Source: Pseudomonadota bacterium
GTDB lineage: Bacteria > Desulfobacterota > Desulfobulbia > Desulfobulbales > CALZHT01
DNA: 42,208 nucleotides
Reading direction: 5' to 3'
NCBI GenBank assembly: GCA_018823135.1
Contig: JAHJJF010000094.1
Location: forward strand, 1 to 42,208
Part shown: positions 16,145 to 34,804 of the stretch, in pieces
Numbering within the stretch: position 1 is the first letter of the stretch
How the letters are laid out: every line of letters starts with the position of its first letter
The notes under the pieces: generated by a model
Database searches by the model: none
Seen by the model: only the letters and a program-made list of their open reading frames with translations
What the model was told of the DNA's origin: nothing
Translations under genes and position numbers: made by a program

Positions 16145-16735
16145 ATGAAAGAAAATGACATCCAGAATAAAGCTCTGGACGGGTTGATAAATGAACTGCA
16201 GGTTTTTGTCGAATTGTCTTTCCAGGGAGATGAAAGTTCCTTAAGAGAATGGATTTCTGAAACCATAAACAAAATAGATGGAAGGTGCTGGGTCAAAAAG
16301 GGGTGTTTTGAGGTCAATTGCCCAGCGTATAAAAATGAATGCGGCCGTTGCTGGTTGATCGCCGGCACGATGTGCGGCGGTGCAGTACAAGGTAAATTTG
16401 CTGATAAATACGGTTTTTGCACTGAATGTGAGATCTATCAGGATAATATTGACGGAGATCGAATCAAAAGGTTGCGGGAGCTGATTATTGCATTAATTCA
16501 TAGTTTGCGTTTGCGCCAAATTGAGCTGACTGAGGTTGTCTCCGAACTGAAAGTTTTACGTGGTATTTTACCGATCTGTTCTTTTTGTAAAAAAATCCGT
16601 GATGATCAGGGGTATTGGGAGAAAGTTGATAAATATATAAGCGCCCATTCAGATGTTTTGTTCAGCCATGGCGTCTGCCCGGAATGTTTGCAGAAAGAAT
16701 ATCCTGAGTTTTACAGAAATAAAATCGAAAAATAA
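16145..16735 (+). CDS. two-CW domain protein with C-terminal CKKIRDD-type cysteine module
   Basis: This 196-residue protein carries two separate cysteine modules. Residues 48-95 form a 'two-CW' module: C48-W49, C54, C59, C66, C69-W70, C77-GG and C92xxC95. The same pattern occurs at the C-terminus of the chemoreceptor at 28969-31128. Residues 145-181 form a second module, ICSFCKKIRDDQGYW followed by FSHGVCPEC (C145, C148, C178, C181). That module is well known as a tail on PAS, response-regulator and histidine-kinase proteins, where it probably binds a metal. A helix (about 104-140) joins them. No kinase, DNA-binding or membrane segment is present. An AGGGAT ribosome site precedes the ATG. A role in redox or metal sensing is inference. 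Confidence 0.85.
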   Translation: MKENDIQNKALDGLINELQVFVELSFQGDESSLREWISETINKIDGRCWVKKGCFEVNCPAYKNECGRCWLIAGTMCGGAVQGKFADKYGFCTECEIYQDNIDGDRIKRLRELIIALIHSLRLRQIELTEVVSELKVLRGILPICSFCKKIRDDQGYWEKVDKYISAHSDVLFSHGVCPECLQKEYPEFYRNKIEK

Positions 16736-16848
16736 TCATTTTTAGTTACTAATTATTTTCTATGTCGTTTTTTTCTGTGTATGAAAAATTGTGCTTAGGA
16801 GAATGCGGCTGAACAAGATTTAAAAGAATCGGCTGAGTAAATAAAAAA

Positions 16849-16880
16849 GGCGAAAGGATATATATCCTTTCGCCTTTTTT
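16849..16880. terminator. bidirectional Rho-independent terminator
   Basis: A perfect 10-bp stem GGCGAAAGGA/TCCTTTCGCC (16849-16858, 16865-16874) with a 6-base loop is followed by TTTTTT and preceded by AAAAAA. It lies between the convergent two-CW gene and fmdB-like gene and can stop transcription from both. Confidence 0.92.
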
Positions 16881-16905
16881 ATTACAATTTTTGGAGTGTT
16901 TTATT

Positions 16906-17589: not shown

Positions 17590-17895
17590 TTGCAGGAAAT
17601 AATCACCGCTTTAGCTGCAGAAGGCATGACACTGGCACGTGATGTGTTGACTTCCGATGGGCGTATTCTTTGCGGTAAAGGGACGATATTAAATGAAAAT
17701 CTCATCGACCGTCTCAAGAAGATGGAGATTGCCCATATTGCTGTTGACGGGCATCCTGTGGAGATCGAAGGCGAGAAGACCCTTGAAGATGAGTTGAAAG
17801 ATATTGAAAAAAGATTCAGCAAGGTTGAAGATACACCGCCGCTGGTGTTCCTCAAGAAATGTATTATGGAAAAGGTTATAAAGGCCAGAAATTAG
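17590..17895 (+). CDS. small protein resembling the N-terminal region of HD-GYP proteins
   Basis: This 101-residue protein contains 'EGMTLARDVLTSDGRILCGK' (11-30) and 'GTILNENLIDRLKKMEIAHI' (31-50). That is the pattern that normally precedes the HD-GYP phosphodiesterase domain. Here it stands alone, followed by an acidic helical tail (about 62-101). Translation starts with TTG, supported by an AGGGAGGG ribosome site 7 bases upstream. The stop is 3 bases before the GTG of the HDOD gene, so the two are coupled. Function is unknown; a partner for the HDOD or GGDEF neighbours is inferred from the arrangement. Confidence 0.8.
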   Translation: MQEIITALAAEGMTLARDVLTSDGRILCGKGTILNENLIDRLKKMEIAHIAVDGHPVEIEGEKTLEDELKDIEKRFSKVEDTPPLVFLKKCIMEKVIKARN

Positions 17896-17898
17896 GGT

Positions 17899-18804
17899 GT
17901 GTCGGCCCCTGATAAATACGGATTAGACATGGATGAAGAAAAAAGAGATAAATTTAAAAAAACTCTGCGTCAGGTAAGAAATCTGCCAACATTGCCCGGC
18001 ATTGTTATCAAGCTTTCGCAGATGGCGGAAGACCCTGAGACCACAACCGAGCAGATGGGCAAGGTGATCAGTAAGGATCACATCATGGCGGCAAAACTTC
18101 TTAAGCTCGTAAATTCCGCTTTTTACGGCTTTCCCCAAAGAATAAGCTCGTTGAGCAGCGCCATCATCCTTCTGGGTTTCAACGTTATAAAGAGTTTGAT
18201 AATCAGCGCTTCAATTTTTGAGGTCATGGAAGCTCAGGATGTTGAACTCTGGGAGCATTCTCTGGGTTGCGCTGTGGTAAGCAGTGTACTTGCCAAGCGG
18301 TTGGGGGTGAGCGAGCCTGAAGAGATCAGCACCGCAGGACTTATCCACGATATCGGCAAAGTGGCCATAAAGATGGAATTGCCGAATGAATACAAACTTA
18401 TTAATAAGCTTGTTGAAGAAAATGGCTTAAGCATGATGGAGGCCGAAAGAGAAGTTCTGGGGCTTGAACATTCCGAGGTCGGAGGCTGGCTTGCAAAAAG
18501 CTGGAATCTTCCGAATAAGCTGGTGGAGCCGGTTTCATGTCATCATGATCCCAGGCTCGCAAAAGAAGAACAGCTTGCCAGCGCCATTGTCCATTTCAGC
18601 GATATCATGATCAGGGGGATGGGGTATGGGCATGGCCATGATATCTGGGTCCCCAGGTTGAGCAAAAGAGCCTGGCGACTTCTTGATTTGTCTCCTGAAG
18701 ATCTTGCTCAGATTGTTGAAGAGGTGGAAGAAAAATTATGGGATGTAAAGGGATTCAGCCTTGATGTCCAATCTGAGACTGAGGCTGATACGGCCAAGTC
18801 ATGA
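17899..18804 (+). CDS. HDOD domain signalling protein
   Basis: This 301-residue protein has an HDOD domain at about 23-220. It begins at 'RNLPTLPGIVIKLSQMAEDP', continues with 'LLKLVNSAFYGFPQRISSLS' (67-86), and reaches an HD-like motif H150-D151 (LIHDIGKV) with a later CHHDP near 214. HDOD domains are degenerate HD phosphohydrolase relatives and act mostly in signalling, often with c-di-GMP proteins; many lack enzymatic activity. The C-terminus is acidic and probably flexible. The GTG start at 17899 follows the previous stop by 3 bases; an ATG at 17929 is an alternative. The next gene on the strand is a GGDEF protein, 102 bases on. Confidence 0.9.
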   Translation: MSAPDKYGLDMDEEKRDKFKKTLRQVRNLPTLPGIVIKLSQMAEDPETTTEQMGKVISKDHIMAAKLLKLVNSAFYGFPQRISSLSSAIILLGFNVIKSLIISASIFEVMEAQDVELWEHSLGCAVVSSVLAKRLGVSEPEEISTAGLIHDIGKVAIKMELPNEYKLINKLVEENGLSMMEAEREVLGLEHSEVGGWLAKSWNLPNKLVEPVSCHHDPRLAKEEQLASAIVHFSDIMIRGMGYGHGHDIWVPRLSKRAWRLLDLSPEDLAQIVEEVEEKLWDVKGFSLDVQSETEADTAKS

Positions 18805-18906
18805 CACGCGGTAGAGGATTATTCTCCTCGGGCCGAGTTTATTCATCCTTGACGGGAATTTCTCTGCGAAAGCATCAATACATGTTCGGAAAATCTACTT
18901 GAACTA

Positions 18907-19833
18907 ATGCCAAGAATTCTGGTCGCGGGACAGGAGACCCTTTTAACGCTGCCTTTCAGGGAACTATTGCAGATTCATGGGTATGAAATTGTAGTATGTT
19001 CAAGGCTTACTGACGCTGTGGCGATAATCCTTGACGATCCCCCTGATTTTCTGATAATCGAAAAGGGCTTTGATCTTAACGGTGATGTTGGATTGATCAA
19101 AGCCTCAAAGGCATGCCTGCAGAAGGCGAATATGCCCATTCTTCTGATTCTTGACGAAGATCTCGTCTCGACCCTTGATTGGAATCTTTATCTCATCGAT
19201 GATATTATCATCCGTCCTTATTCTCCCGAACTGCTTCTCGCCCGCGTCCATCTTGCCGAATCACGCATGAATCGGGTTTTTGATAATAATCCCCTGACTC
19301 GTCTTCCTGGTAACACTTCAATTCTCAAAGCTATACAGAAAGTACTGGGGCGGGATTCCTGTTTTGCCGTCTGCTATGTGGATATTGATAATTTTAAACC
19401 GTATAATGATCGTTATGGATTTTCCCGGGGTGATGAGGTGATTATCATGACGGGTAGAATAATTGTCAATGTCATAGAAGAAATGTCCCGGGACGGCAGT
19501 TTTGTTGGTCATATCGGAGGGGATGATTTTGTCTTTATTCTCAGGGAAGAGCATGTCATCTCAGTTTGTGAGAAGATTCTTGTAAATTTTGAACTCGTGA
19601 AAAATATGTTTCTGAGTGCCGTTGATATCAAGGCTGGGAGTTTTGTGGGCAAGGATCGAAAAGGGAATGAAAACAATTTTGACCTCCTGAGTCTTTCGAT
19701 TGGAGTAATAATAACCGAGCCGGGAAAATATTCGCATTACGGCGAAGTAACCGAGGCTGCCTCGCAAATGAAAAGTTATGTGAAAAAGAGGTCCGGGAGT
19801 AATTTTTTTATCGACCGGCGGGAGATACTGTGA
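18907..19833 (+). CDS. pseudo-receiver GGDEF protein (GGDDF variant)
   Basis: This 308-residue protein has an N-terminal receiver-like fold (about 1-118). Where the phosphoacceptor Asp should be there is Glu52 (DFLIIEKG), and the conserved Lys is Arg103 (IIRPYSP), so phosphorylation in the usual way is unlikely. A GGDEF domain follows (about 128-305): 'NNPLTRLPGNTSI', VDIDNFKPYNDRYGF at 158-172 and the signature GGDDF at 204-208. No I-site RxxD is seen five residues before the signature. GGDDF variants occur in this subfamily; whether it makes c-di-GMP or only binds nucleotides cannot be read from sequence. There is no strong ribosome site. Confidence 0.88.
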   Translation: MPRILVAGQETLLTLPFRELLQIHGYEIVVCSRLTDAVAIILDDPPDFLIIEKGFDLNGDVGLIKASKACLQKANMPILLILDEDLVSTLDWNLYLIDDIIIRPYSPELLLARVHLAESRMNRVFDNNPLTRLPGNTSILKAIQKVLGRDSCFAVCYVDIDNFKPYNDRYGFSRGDEVIIMTGRIIVNVIEEMSRDGSFVGHIGGDDFVFILREEHVISVCEKILVNFELVKNMFLSAVDIKAGSFVGKDRKGNENNFDLLSLSIGVIITEPGKYSHYGEVTEAASQMKSYVKKRSGSNFFIDRREIL

Positions 19834-28968: not shown

Positions 28969-31128
28969 TCAAAAATCTTCGAATATATCGTCGCTTTCTG
29001 CCAGAGGCATGGCTTTTTTGTTGGGAAGCCTGGCCTGAGGCGTATAGGTTTTTAATGAATAATTGTCGGGGTCCGTTGCGGTGATATACACATCGCATTT
29101 CCGGCAATTGTCCATTTTTTCTCGGTAGGAACCCTGTTTTTGTCCTCCACAGAAAGTCCCGGTAACCGTCCAGCAACTGTCGCCGTGACTGGGATGTGCC
29201 GGGCACTTGTTTCTTCTGTCATCCGGACAATTTTTCATTTCCCAGCAGATGACGCTATTGTCTTTAGTTGCCTGTTGCACCGATGCGTTTCCATAAACGG
29301 CTTTGCGAAGCTCAGCAACCATCAGATTCATGTCTTCGGTCTGGGCGGTTAATTCCGCCGCAGTGGCCGCCGATTCCTGGGCGGTTGAGGCGACCATCTG
29401 GGTTGCCTGGTCTGTTTCAACCGCGGCTGTTGAAATCTGCTCGATACCCTTGGTAATTTCCAGGCTTGCCTGGGTGATGGCTGCGGTTTTTTCTCCCATC
29501 TGGGTTGCCGATTCGACGATTCCATCGAAATCGCTGTTGATGCCCTTGAGGGATTCTGCGCTTTTCTTGACGCGACTGACTGTGCCGTCCAGGAGGTTCT
29601 GGGTATCTTTTGCCGCAGCTGAGGTGCGCTTGGCAAGATTTTTCACTTCGTCGGCAACCACGGCAAATCCTGCCCCGGCTTCCCCGGCCCGGGCCGCCTC
29701 AACTGCAGCGTTCAGAGCAAGCAGGTTTGTCTGGAAGGCAATGGCGTCGATGGTCTGGATAATTTTCTTTATCTGGTCGCTGTCCTTTTCGATCTGTGAC
29801 ATGGTTCTGGTTAATTCAACGAGTGCCAGCAGGGATTGTGCGGTTTTTTCGATGTTTTCATTCATGAGTTTTTCAGAGCCGAAGGTGAGATCGGAAGTCT
29901 GCTTGCTCATGGAAGTCATTTCCTCTAAAGAGGTTGATGTTTCTTCCATGTTAGCTGCCTGTTCCGAAGCCTTATCCGAAAGGGTGTTACTGGCAACGGA
30001 GATTTCTCTTGCCGCGAGCGCCACATGGGTTGCGCAATCTTCCAGGCCGTTGGTGATCATCCCGAGCAACTTGGTTATCCCACGAATGATGATAAAAGAC
30101 AGGAACGCCCCGACTATTACGGCAATTCCACCCATTATGGTGATGTTGATCTTTGTCTTCCTGGCTGAACTTAAGAGTTTCTCATCGGTCATGATCTTAC
30201 TTCGTGCTTCCGCGCGGATACCCTTGAGTTGCCCCTGAATTTCAGCAAGGGCGGGAATGGTCCGGGTGGAGTAAACGAGATTTGCTTCCTGCATCCCTTT
30301 GACTCGTTCCGCCTGCCAGTCAAGGGTCTGGTCGATGACGCTTAATACCCTTGCGGCAAAATTTCTGGTGTTTTTTGCAAAGTATTCCTGGGAACCGTTG
30401 CGGTCGTCCATCATGAGGAAATCTGAAATGACTACGGCGCTTTCATGGAGTTTTTGGTGTGGCTCTTCGATTTTACTAATTATATTGGAAAATTCAGGTT
30501 CGTGAGATTTCAGTTCGGCCACCTGGGGGGAATAGAGCCATTTGCCCAATCCGCACTTGGTATGGTCAGTTTGTACGGCAGAAAGCTTATCCATGAGTTC
30601 CAGCATGTCTGAAGACTGGTCAATGAGAACATCCTTGACACGATTGATCCATTCCAGGTGGTCAATTTTTTTCTCACGGAGAAAATCTCCCAGGGTAAGG
30701 TCGACCTGGCGAAATTTTTCGCCGACAGCAATTGCAGATTCATGAAGTTCGCGATGGGGTGTTTCTATTTGCTTGAGGGATCCGGCAAGGGACGGGACCA
30801 GGGTTTCTGCATCTTTGCGGCCTTGTCCGTAAAGCCATTTGCCAAAACCGCATTTATGATCATCTACTTCAACTTCAAGGGTGGTGACAGAATCATCGGT
30901 GAGCAGGGCATTTACTTTGTTTGCCCAATTGAGATGGTCGACCTCTTTCTGGGCCAGAACGCCATCAAGTTGGTTGCCGTCAATAACCTTGCGGGCATTA
31001 GTAATGAGAGAATCAACACCTTGAATGCTCACCAACCCGATCAGCGCCAGAAGAACGAGCACCGCAGTAAAGCCGCCGGCAATTTTTTTACCGATTGTAA
31101 CCTGATGCAGTTTGCTTAAGAGTTGCAT
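28969..31128 (-). CDS. methyl-accepting chemotaxis protein with tandem CZB domains and C-terminal two-CW module
   Basis: This 719-residue chemoreceptor has a first membrane helix at about 16-36. A periplasmic part then carries two zinc-binding CZB domains: CZB1 with H65, C93 (CGFGKWL), H125 and H129, and CZB2 with H157, C192 (CGLGKWL), H224 and H228. A second helix lies at about 328-348. The cytoplasmic signalling domain (about 400-600) has the hairpin tip '[20 protein letters not shown]'. A cysteine module follows at 628-678 (C628-W, C634, C642, C652-W, C660-GG, C675xxC678), then an acidic tail ending DDIFEDF. CZB domains bind zinc and are usually cytoplasmic. Ligand sensed: perhaps zinc or HOCl, inferred. 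A CAGGGGGA ribosome site precedes the ATG. It is 82 bases after the STAS gene on the same strand. Confidence 0.92.
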
Positions 31129-31210: not shown

Positions 31211-31519
31211 TCAAACCCTCTGGATCGTCAGAATGGAATTCAATTTCAGTTCCTGGAACAGGCTATAAACCGTATCTTGTGTATTCACTATAGTGATGGA
31301 GCCGCCGTTAACTGCAATGTTCTTATAAAACAGCAGGAGTTTGCCGATGCCTGAACTGCCGATATAATGCACATTACTGAAGTCGATTATTACGTCCTTG
31401 ATGGTTGTCAGATTCAGTCTGCCGAATTGCGCTTTGAGCATTTCGGCACCGTTTTCGTCAATGTCGCCGTTTACTTTAATCGTTATTGTTTTACCTTCCT
31501 GGTTAACAGTTATATCCAT
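31211..31519 (-). CDS. STAS domain anti-sigma factor antagonist
   Basis: This 102-residue protein is a single STAS domain, with '[20 protein letters not shown]' at 42-61. Serine 55 or 56 in GSSG is the usual phosphorylation site that a RsbW/SpoIIAB-type kinase modifies and a PP2C phosphatase reverses. The start at 31519 is chosen because GGAG lies 9 bases before it; the frame extends to an ATG at 31564 without support. It follows the phosphatase-kinase gene by 183 bases and precedes the chemoreceptor by 82, all on one strand. Target (an anti-sigma factor or another effector) is not visible. Confidence 0.92.
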
Positions 31520-31702
31520 AATTATATCTCCGGTTTTTTGTGGATCTTTAAGCGGGGGGAGCATGATACGTTGAATACGCCCGAAGCTTTTTTGTTTTCT
31601 ATGAGGCGATAAACAATTACCGCCGTTTTTGTATATAAGTTGCCTTCAGTTTTATAGAAAAGACCCTGTTTGTTTATTTAAGTAATCCATCCCCTGTTTT
31701 TA

Positions 31703-34700
31703 TTAAAATGTCCAGAGGTTCATGAGTTTGTTGATAATTTCTCTTTGCTTCCGTTCTTCAGGGGAGACATGTTTTTTAAAGGACAAGAAAACATGCCTGC
31801 CATTATCTTTCCAACAGGCAAATGTGCTGTGATTGCGGATCATGTAAACCCCCCGTCCTGATTCTCTGGTGATATTTTTGTAGGATGTGGGGTCCGGAAT
31901 GGCATGATGGTCAAAACCTTGTCCCTCGTCAATAATTTCAATGACAAAGTGGTTGGCAAATCTCCAACGAACAGTAACGAGCTTGTCTGGATTTTTTTTA
32001 TTGCCGTGTTTCCAGGCATTCATTACAGCCTCGGTTAAAGAAATGCGGATATTTGCCAGTTGCTGTGAATCAAATCCCTGTTCGTTAAGGTTTTGTCGAA
32101 TATTATCGAGCAATGTACTGATATGTAGATCTATTTCCGATAAGTCCTTCGGGCGCCAAACTGCCACATTGTAGCATTTTTGATTTTCTACCTCAAGTCC
32201 AAGGATGGTAATATCGTCGTCCGAAGTGTTTTTTTTGTATGGAATCAGCTCCTCGTTGCTTTGCTCGGCGATTTTTGTAAGGGTTCGATCAATGATATCA
32301 GACACCCTATGCTGTTCATCCGGTGAAAGGTCTTCCGCGATAATCTGTGCAAGATCAGCAGGTTTCAAGGTTTTACGAGATTTTCTGTACGGCATGTCAA
32401 GAAGGCCGTCAGTATAGAAAATGAGCTTGTCTTCTTCCTCAAGCTGCAATTCACCCGCAGTGAACAACATACCGCTTTGCACTGCCACCGGCAGGTTTGT
32501 TCCTGATTCGCCGGAGGAGGCAATCAGCAGAACTTGATTCCGGCGGATCAGGATAAAAGGCGGATGCCCCGTGGAAACAAAGCGCAGCAGGAGTTTTTCA
32601 TGATCGATTTCTCCGGTGATGGACGTAAAAAAATCATCTTCGTTGAAACAATTGGAATTGCAGATTGAATCATTCAGCTCGGATACTATTTCCTCAAGGG
32701 GGCGTCCCTGGTTTTGTTGAATGAGAGCATTGTGAGTCAAATCGGAGATAATGCTTCGCAGAATACAGTTTACCGCATGTCCGGATTGATCTTTGACCGA
32801 CAGCATTGTCCTTCCCGCTTGATGATTTGTGGTCGGCGGCAGGTTTCGGACGAAATAATGATCGCCGCCCTCGGAATTGCAGGAAACGGATGTTGCTTCA
32901 ACATAAAGCGCCAGATCATCATTGATTTCAATAAGGCTGGGAGGCAGGCCATTCACCAGCCCAAGGATTTTTCTGGCAAGGATGATGTTGATTTCCTGCT
33001 GTTTGAGCAGACGCTTGATATCCGTTATGTTCAGCAGGCTCTGGACAAGGTATTGGTTTCCCTTGATATCGACGGACGCGACGGAGCGTCTGACATGAAT
33101 CGGCTTGCCTTTTTTGGGCCGCAGCATGCAGTCGTCCTGTGAAGTCTGATGGATTTTATCGATGCCGTCAAAGGGATTGTTTATGTCGAGATAAGAGTCG
33201 AAGCTGCTGCCGATGAGTTCTTCCAGAGGGTTGTCGATCATCTCCGAGGCGCAGGGGTTTGCATCGGTTATCACCCCGGTATTCGAGTCTGTCACCAGAA
33301 CACCGGTCTGGATGGTAGCCATAATCGCTCGCAGGTATTCTTCATTTTCTTTAAGGGCGTCATCGGCTTTTTTTCTTTCGGTAATATCCTTGAAATTTTC
33401 AATTATGCCGATGAACTCGCCATCAGGAGAAAGGAACGGTTTTGCAACCATGATGCAGGGGATGGTGCTGCCGTCAAGACGTTCCTTTACCACCTCGGCC
33501 TCAATGAACTTTTCACCATTTTTAATCCGCGTTACCGGGCATTCCGGCGTGCCGCACGCAGAACCCGGGAAGACCTCGTGGCATTTTTTTCCGATAAGAT
33601 CCTCATCCGAAAGGCCGGTCACCGTCAGAAAGGTGTTATTCCAGCGCATCATTTCGAAATCTCTGCTGATGATGCGCATACCGTCGGCCGCGGTATTGAA
33701 TATCTGGTCAAGTTCTGCATGGGAGGTCTGGATGGCTTTTTCCGCAAGTTCGCGCTCGAGAATTTCTTTTTCGAGTTTCAGTGAGGCCAACACCAGTTCA
33801 TCCGTCCTTTCTTCAACCCTAAGCTCGAGATTATGTCGTATCTCGCCCAGGGCATTCTCCGCCTTTTTCCGTTCGGCGATTTCAAGGGTGAGCTCTTCGT
33901 TTAACGCCGCGTAATCTTGTAATCTTTCTTCAAGGGAAGTGTAGTAATTCCGGAGCGTTGCGGAAAGAATATTAAAGCTTCCTGCCAGCTGGGTTATTTC
34001 ATCGTTGCCACGGATTTCAATTGGCATGATCTGGGAATAATCCGCCTGGCTTGCCATTCTGTCAATATGTCCGATTATTTTTGTCAGGCGGCCTGTAACC
34101 AGAAATTTGAAAACAAAGAAAATTGAAAGAAACAGCCCGGCTATCCCTGCACTGATGAGAGCGAAATTAATGTTCAAGTCCTTCCAGAGGCGGTTGTGGA
34201 TCTTACTTGTTGGCAGCGCTATGGTGTCAAGGCCCATGACCTGCCCCACCGGCAAATGGAAGGAAGCGTCAGGGCCGTAACGTTTTACCAATGAGTTCGG
34301 GGCGTCTGCCGGATCTCCATGGCATTGGAGACAGGAATCTTCCATTATCCGGGGGATGTAATGAGCAAGGTACTTCTGGTCGTTAAAGGTGATTCCGCCG
34401 GCCCAATGTTTCAAATCAGGATTTTTATTGAAATGATTTATCATCTGCTGTTCTTCAGGCCCGGCAATGTTAACGGGGTTGCGCGGATTATTGGATGAGA
34501 ATTTCAGGATGATTTCAGGGAAGTCCTTTCGGACATTATTGAATATCGAACGGGCGATATAAGAAGTTGACATGGTTTCCGGTTCAAAATCCTCGGAATC
34601 GAGCAGTTCTGTCATTCTGGGTCGGATGATATCTTCAACATATTCTCGGATGGCCACATCAAAAGTCAAAGCAAGATGGATTTCCTCGTTGATCAGATCC

Positions 34701-34804
34701 TCAACGTATTTATGGGAAAGAAACCAGGTGCGGTAGGCGAGAAAGGAGGAGAAAACAAAGATAACCGTTGCAATGAGGAGGAAAAATTTAGTGCCGAGCT
34801 TCAT
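31703..34804 (-). CDS. membrane haem-type sensor fused to PP2C/SpoIIE phosphatase and RsbW-like kinase
   Basis: This 1033-residue protein has a signal-anchor helix (about 7-25). A periplasmic DUF3365/Tll0287-like domain spans about 40-205 with the haem motif CLQCH at 158-162. A second helix (about 213-236), HAMP (about 234-290) and a coiled coil (about 290-365) follow. Two PAS regions come next, about 368-480 (with C-rich SACGTPEC) and about 485-600. The SpoIIE-type PP2C domain spans about 630-860 (GGDHY, DQSGHAV, STGHPPF, FYTDGLLD, DDDITILG). A GHKL ATPase spans about 890-1010 (EAVMNAWKHGNK, DEGQGFD, GRGVYMIRNH). It can thus plausibly both phosphorylate and dephosphorylate the STAS protein encoded next. 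A GGGG ribosome-like site precedes the ATG. Signal (redox or a small ligand at the haem) and net output are inferred. Confidence 0.93.
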   Translation of the reverse strand: MKLGTKFFLLIATVIFVFSSFLAYRTWFLSHKYVEDLINEEIHLALTFDVAIREYVEDIIRPRMTELLDSEDFEPETMSTSYIARSIFNNVRKDFPEIILKFSSNNPRNPVNIAGPEEQQMINHFNKNPDLKHWAGGITFNDQKYLAHYIPRIMEDSCLQCHGDPADAPNSLVKRYGPDASFHLPVGQVMGLDTIALPTSKIHNRLWKDLNINFALISAGIAGLFLSIFFVFKFLVTGRLTKIIGHIDRMASQADYSQIMPIEIRGNDEITQLAGSFNILSATLRNYYTSLEERLQDYAALNEELTLEIAERKKAENALGEIRHNLELRVEERTDELVLASLKLEKEILERELAEKAIQTSHAELDQIFNTAADGMRIISRDFEMMRWNNTFLTVTGLSDEDLIGKKCHEVFPGSACGTPECPVTRIKNGEKFIEAEVVKERLDGSTIPCIMVAKPFLSPDGEFIGIIENFKDITERKKADDALKENEEYLRAIMATIQTGVLVTDSNTGVITDANPCASEMIDNPLEELIGSSFDSYLDINNPFDGIDKIHQTSQDDCMLRPKKGKPIHVRRSVASVDIKGNQYLVQSLLNITDIKRLLKQQEINIILARKILGLVNGLPPSLIEINDDLALYVEATSVSCNSEGGDHYFVRNLPPTTNHQAGRTMLSVKDQSGHAVNCILRSIISDLTHNALIQQNQGRPLEEIVSELNDSICNSNCFNEDDFFTSITGEIDHEKLLLRFVSTGHPPFILIRRNQVLLIASSGESGTNLPVAVQSGMLFTAGELQLEEEDKLIFYTDGLLDMPYRKSRKTLKPADLAQIIAEDLSPDEQHRVSDIIDRTLTKIAEQSNEELIPYKKNTSDDDITILGLEVENQKCYNVAVWRPKDLSEIDLHISTLLDNIRQNLNEQGFDSQQLANIRISLTEAVMNAWKHGNKKNPDKLVTVRWRFANHFVIEIIDEGQGFDHHAIPDPTSYKNITRESGRGVYMIRNHSTFACWKDNGRHVFLSFKKHVSPEERKQREIINKLMNLWTF

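Follow-up and report, generated by a model that had tools for sequence, protein, structure and literature searches.

What does a small protein built around two cysteine modules do in the cell? The question is raised by the open reading frame at 16145-16735 on the forward strand of the window (the whole stretch of DNA analysed here, 42,208 nucleotides), whose product we name P0001.

The gene and its product

The features of the gene are as follows.

16145-16735, forward strand: whole gene, ATG to TAA, encoding the predicted soluble 196-aa P0001 (two-CW domain, helix, CKKIRDD module)
16151-16267, forward strand: N-terminal helical region of two helices, residues 3-41, from conservation and the AlphaFold2 model
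16286-16444, forward strand: module 1, two-CW domain, residues 48-100, with the family cysteines C48, C54, C59, C69, C77, C92 and C95, plus C66
16460-16567, forward strand: putative signalling helix, residues 106-141, in which His119 of the HSLR motif is invariant; junction of the GGDEF/CKKIRDD swap
16556-16714, forward strand: module 2, CKKIRDD module, residues 138-190, with invariant C145, C148, R152, W158, H175, C178 and C181

P0001 contains 12 cysteines, eight in module 1 (48, 54, 59, 66, 69, 77, 92, 95) and four in module 2 (145, 148, 178, 181). Hydropathy over 19 residues reaches a maximum of 1.15, with no stretch long enough for a membrane helix, and P0001 is thus predicted to be soluble, as an earlier note on this DNA had stated. 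That note also described two distinct cysteine modules joined by a helix, a description that a profile match and the AlphaFold2 model bear out: residues 106-141 form a continuous long helix that links both modules. Its view that the protein is almost only these parts needs correcting, as it overlooks residues 3-41, which form two helices that belong to the architecture. They are conserved in CKKIRDD-type and GGDEF-type homologues (F21, S25, W36 and I37 are invariant in A1).

The frame is kept end to end in orthologues with 69% (L026) and 63% (L030) identity, and a paralogue in the same genome has the same architecture at 51% identity. Across comparisons with P0001, pS is about 0.8 (synonymous sites are saturated) and pN is 0.21-0.32. 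Because orthologues and paralogue retain frame and architecture, with saturated synonymous sites and little non-synonymous change, we judge from these comparisons that 16145-16735 is a genuine gene and that purifying selection acts on it. P0001 is not alone in its arrangement, which is found in seven full-length proteins from five genomes; its orthologues occur in about five other genomes of the order. Further proteins of this type are one truncated at a contig end and another into which a PAS domain is inserted.

A phage search gave no match and a plasmid search a single weak partial match, in Dongshaea marina. Sequence matches in the PDB to 8v34 and to a glutamate dehydrogenase were set aside as chance, as the cysteine pattern is not preserved. 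Fold searches with the full-length model and with the CKKIRDD model returned no usable match, which counts neither for nor against any fold.

Module 1 is a two-CW domain

Residues 48-100 match the NCBIfam family NF045718 (two_CW_domain) at 29.7 bits (E about 6e-7 to 7e-7). P0001 carries all seven family cysteines and W49, W70, G74, T75 and K88, and shares with the family the two CW motifs, GT-C and K-x3-C-x2-C. It differs in falling just under the curated cut-off (29.7 bits, or 31.6 bits in a genome search in which the paralogue reached 39.6, vs 35 bits) and in its extra Cys66, which is specific to the subfamily. Conservation was counted over 41 family members chosen by profile, since a count over members picked by cysteine pattern would be circular. 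C48, C54, C59, C69, C92 and C95 are present in all of them and C77 in 98%, and W49, G74, T75 and K88 are almost as fixed as the cysteines. The genome encodes 14 two-CW copies, including free proteins of about 100 aa and a chemoreceptor tail; in P0001 the C59-C69 loop is much shorter than in the long free form.

The chemoreceptor tail, which the earlier note had correctly equated with module 1, lies in the window:

29080-29247, reverse strand: two-CW domain as C-terminal tail (residues 628-683) of the chemoreceptor at 28969-31128, 50.4 bits

Module 1 of P0001 thus appears from sequence to belong with this chemoreceptor-tail family, a named domain without described function; literature searches on the two-CW domain yielded no relevant paper. 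The chemoreceptor at 28969-31128 (reverse strand) also has two CZB zinc-binding matches and an MCP signalling domain, placing two unlike cysteine/metal modules on one receptor.

The partners of two-CW domains are mostly outputs: MCPsignal, HisKA/HATPase, GGDEF, HTH_3, and cyclic-nucleotide-binding with Ser/Thr kinase domains. In the last group the two-CW domain is N-terminal to the cyclic-nucleotide-binding domain and the Ser/Thr protein kinase (L182, L189). Also present is a family of small proteins that combine an XRE-type helix-turn-helix with a two-CW domain (L170 on G000:C82, and L196-L204), among which L201 and L202 stand out in length, L201 also carrying PAS domains. These are candidate transcription regulators under two-CW control.

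In five membrane histidine kinases (L058, L059, L061, L062, L068) the two-CW domain sits inside the HAMP connector. The HAMP profile (PF00672) halts at the insertion, at about position 26-31 of 53; with the two-CW domain excised in silico, HAMP aligns over 1-48 or 1/2-52 of 53, three of the kinases giving E values of 5e-7 to 2e-9 and the other two weaker ones. The HAMP connector would be a place where a change in two-CW packing acts directly on the signalling helix. Whereas in these relatives the two-CW domain is inserted in the HAMP connector and feeds AS2, P0001 treated in the same way gave no HAMP profile match. P0001 shares the logic of the HAMP/two-CW kinases, but as its own flanking helices have no HAMP match it is not a HAMP protein.

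Module 2 is the C-terminal CKKIRDD module

Module 2 had no credible match in Pfam, NCBIfam or the PDB, the Pfam matches being limited to weak ones to zinc ribbons, and literature searches on its motifs found no relevant paper. CKKIRDD is thus unnamed in Pfam and NCBIfam. The earlier note named an already characterised enzyme family, or cysteines that vary, as evidence against its reading; we found no known enzyme family, and the cysteines are conserved in homologues. CKKIRDD proteins occur in 67 of the 148 sampled genomes of the phylum, with ten copies in this genome, and also in a Verrucomicrobial genome (L028).

Seven residues (C145, C148, R152, W158, H175, C178 and C181 in P0001 numbering) are invariant in 101 copies, in part by construction, given that the collecting pattern included the cysteines and the His, though not the Trp. 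The same seven do not vary either in an initial set of 23 copies gathered by similarity. The module always directly follows a conserved helix, in which L128, L138, G140, P143 and I144 are nearly invariant. Its model (pLDDT 88.4) has the order CxxC, short strands, helix, and a CxxC that opens a helix. The arrangement is suggestive of a treble-clef or ribbon zinc finger with C145, C148, C178 and C181 as a Cys4 site, a fold and metal binding predicted from cysteine pattern and secondary structure. The genome also encodes short free proteins (L023, L024 and L025; 57-86 aa) with CxxC and SHGYCPEC/SHGYCPDC, which are probable free relatives of the module.

The nearest described kind are HalOD2 and TackOD1, CxxC-type predicted zinc fingers of archaeal REC-HalOD2 and REC-TackOD1 proteins that have been treated as response regulator outputs (Galperin et al., 2018; PMC5847659). 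The CxxC pairs are 29 residues apart in CKKIRDD vs 20-25 in HalOD2, and PF18547 (HalOD2) was absent among the matches of P0001 at E up to 1. HalOD2 and TackOD1 are found on archaeal response regulators, whereas CKKIRDD is bacterial and occurs also on PAS, membrane and two-CW inputs.

CKKIRDD is at the extreme C-terminus in every one of 105 proteins, with 6-41 residues beyond the last cysteine (median 17.5, n = 104 with an intact end). Pfam partners in 93 of these proteins are sensing or receiving domains only: PAS, receiver (26), MASE1, MASE3, MASE6, Tll0287, VUPS, HAMP, GAF, CBS, Cache, solute-binding and SnoaL-like domains. Among the 105, which come mostly from the top of the ranking and may favour typical architectures, there was no kinase, cyclase, HTH or chemotaxis partner, and histidine kinase and GGDEF profiles matched none (0/105) and recovered their controls. 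The domain survey proposed in the earlier note separates the modules, with mainly outputs beside two-CW and input domains only beside CKKIRDD. It also amends the note's list of proteins on which module 2 is a tail, in that PAS and receiver proteins stay and kinases, for this sample, drop out.

A receiver is attached in about a quarter of the CKKIRDD proteins examined (27 counted by profile; a strict pattern recovered only nine). The phospho-Asp is kept in 25 of the 27 and 22 are no longer than 300 aa, so that in those short proteins CKKIRDD would be the only candidate effector to carry the response. A histidine kinase is encoded nearby at 9 of 26 receiver CKKIRDD loci vs 8 of 77 others (Fisher p 0.011). 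Domains associated with REC may also be inputs and are not necessarily outputs (Galperin et al., 2018; PMC5847659).

GGDEF and CKKIRDD follow the same N-terminal part

Within the taxonomic order of this genome, eleven proteins about 300 aa long share the N-terminal helices, two-CW domain and HSLR helix of P0001 and continue with GGDEF, and eight proteins have the same N-terminal part followed by CKKIRDD. In this set GGDEF was assigned by a Pfam match for L084 and by the GGDEF motif and its flanks for the others. The two-CW/GGDEF proteins (e.g., L033-L041; PF00990, diguanylate cyclase family) are about 40-50% identical to P0001 over the shared part. They end in a GGDEF output that P0001 lacks: it has no Pfam match to GGDEF, and a local profile was negative with positive controls. 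One more protein (L032) carries PAS after the helix and ahead of CKKIRDD.

When a tree is built from the shared part, the GGDEF/CKKIRDD label needs 2 changes, against a mean of 6.3 when shuffled. The two types separate on the tree, which neither shows nor excludes a single origin of each. As the same N-terminal part precedes either GGDEF or CKKIRDD, it appears that one input drives alternative outputs, a c-di-GMP enzyme or CKKIRDD. No other observation says as much about the nature of the module.

A possible one-component switch

We favour, at slightly better than even odds, a reading of P0001 as a minimal cytosolic one-component switch with a two-CW input, a helix and a CKKIRDD output, because two-CW has mainly output partners and CKKIRDD input partners only. 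The direction of signalling is read from where the domains sit and what accompanies them, metal or redox sensing from the cysteines, and output by partner binding from the invariant non-cysteine residues and the absence of enzyme resemblance. The seven conserved cysteines of the two-CW domain would probably hold a metal or iron-sulphur cluster or shift redox state, and the change would alter the packing of the flanking helices. Helix 106-141 would then relay it onward to CKKIRDD; helices transmit signals this way in HAMP, PAS and GGDEF proteins. As output, CKKIRDD would act as a Cys4 zinc-finger-like unit (C145, C148, C178, C181) in which the invariant Arg152, Trp158 and His175 could form a contact surface for a partner protein or nucleic acid.

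More tentatively, and at somewhat short of even chances, CKKIRDD may be an undescribed, widespread bacterial signalling output that is interchangeable with GGDEF and, in many response regulators that can be phosphorylated as well as in PAS and membrane sensors, is the sole candidate effector. P0001 would be its simplest form, driven by the two-CW domain as an undescribed input that can also be built into HAMP.

The main rival, which we consider unlikely yet worth weighing, is that CKKIRDD is a zinc-stabilised cap, or a dimerisation or localisation tail, of a coiled coil and not an effector. The output would then consist in the whole protein dimerising or changing conformation, to be read by a partner, as has been proposed for REC-PAS proteins (PMC5847659). 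The position of the module directly after the conserved helix and its very short C-terminal tail suit such a role, and a tail for dimerisation or docking would be consistent with C-terminal placement and input-only partners too. However, invariant Arg152, Trp158 and His175 beside the cysteines exceed the needs of a cap, and CKKIRDD takes the place of an enzymatic output (GGDEF) after a shared input.

It is improbable that both modules are inputs or metal sites, with P0001 as a dual sensor or adaptor passing its signal to a separate kinase or cyclase. Both are cysteine-based and in L032 a PAS domain lies between them, but CKKIRDD is upstream of an output in none of the 105 proteins. About 50 bp separate the paralogue gene from an upstream gene for a CBS-GAF-PAS-HD-GYP protein, and an orthologue gene (L157) follows a PilZ gene. 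These neighbours hint at c-di-GMP signalling, no more, and gene neighbours compared among P0001 orthologues were not conserved.

The earlier note's proposal of a diffusible carrier, taking redox equivalents or metal from one protein to another, finds some encouragement in the solubility of P0001, its two cysteine modules, and the existence of two-CW proteins (about 100 aa) and short CKKIRDD-like proteins (L023, L025) that occur free, but we regard it as very improbable, as the modules flank a signalling helix, one at either end, one exchanged with GGDEF, are mostly attached to signalling proteins, and match no redox carrier family. With that placement, and with module 1 joined to five or more kinds of output and module 2 to inputs only, a one-component switch fits better than a carrier.

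If CKKIRDD is an output, one could be assigned to a whole class of response regulators and sensors that at present seem to have none. P0001 would then be the smallest construct that holds input, helix and output together, and through the GGDEF swap the signal sensed by the two-CW module could readily be assayed.

Genomic surroundings

The P0001 gene stands alone. An Rfam search gave no match. The gene about 540 bp upstream is one we take to be queA, and the convergent neighbour encodes an FmdB-type zinc-ribbon protein. Between the P0001 gene and the latter is one further feature:

16840-16883, forward strand: terminator-like hairpin, by consensus match only

Elsewhere in the window, three consecutive genes at 17590-19833 (forward strand) encode a protein weakly similar to the C-terminus of a NosR-type c-di-GMP phosphodiesterase, an HDOD protein and a GGDEF protein (motif GGDDF). 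At 31211-34804 (reverse strand), a STAS protein adjoins a Tll0287-HAMP-PAS-PAS-SpoIIE-HATPase protein; the two are a partner-switching pair and neighbour the chemoreceptor.
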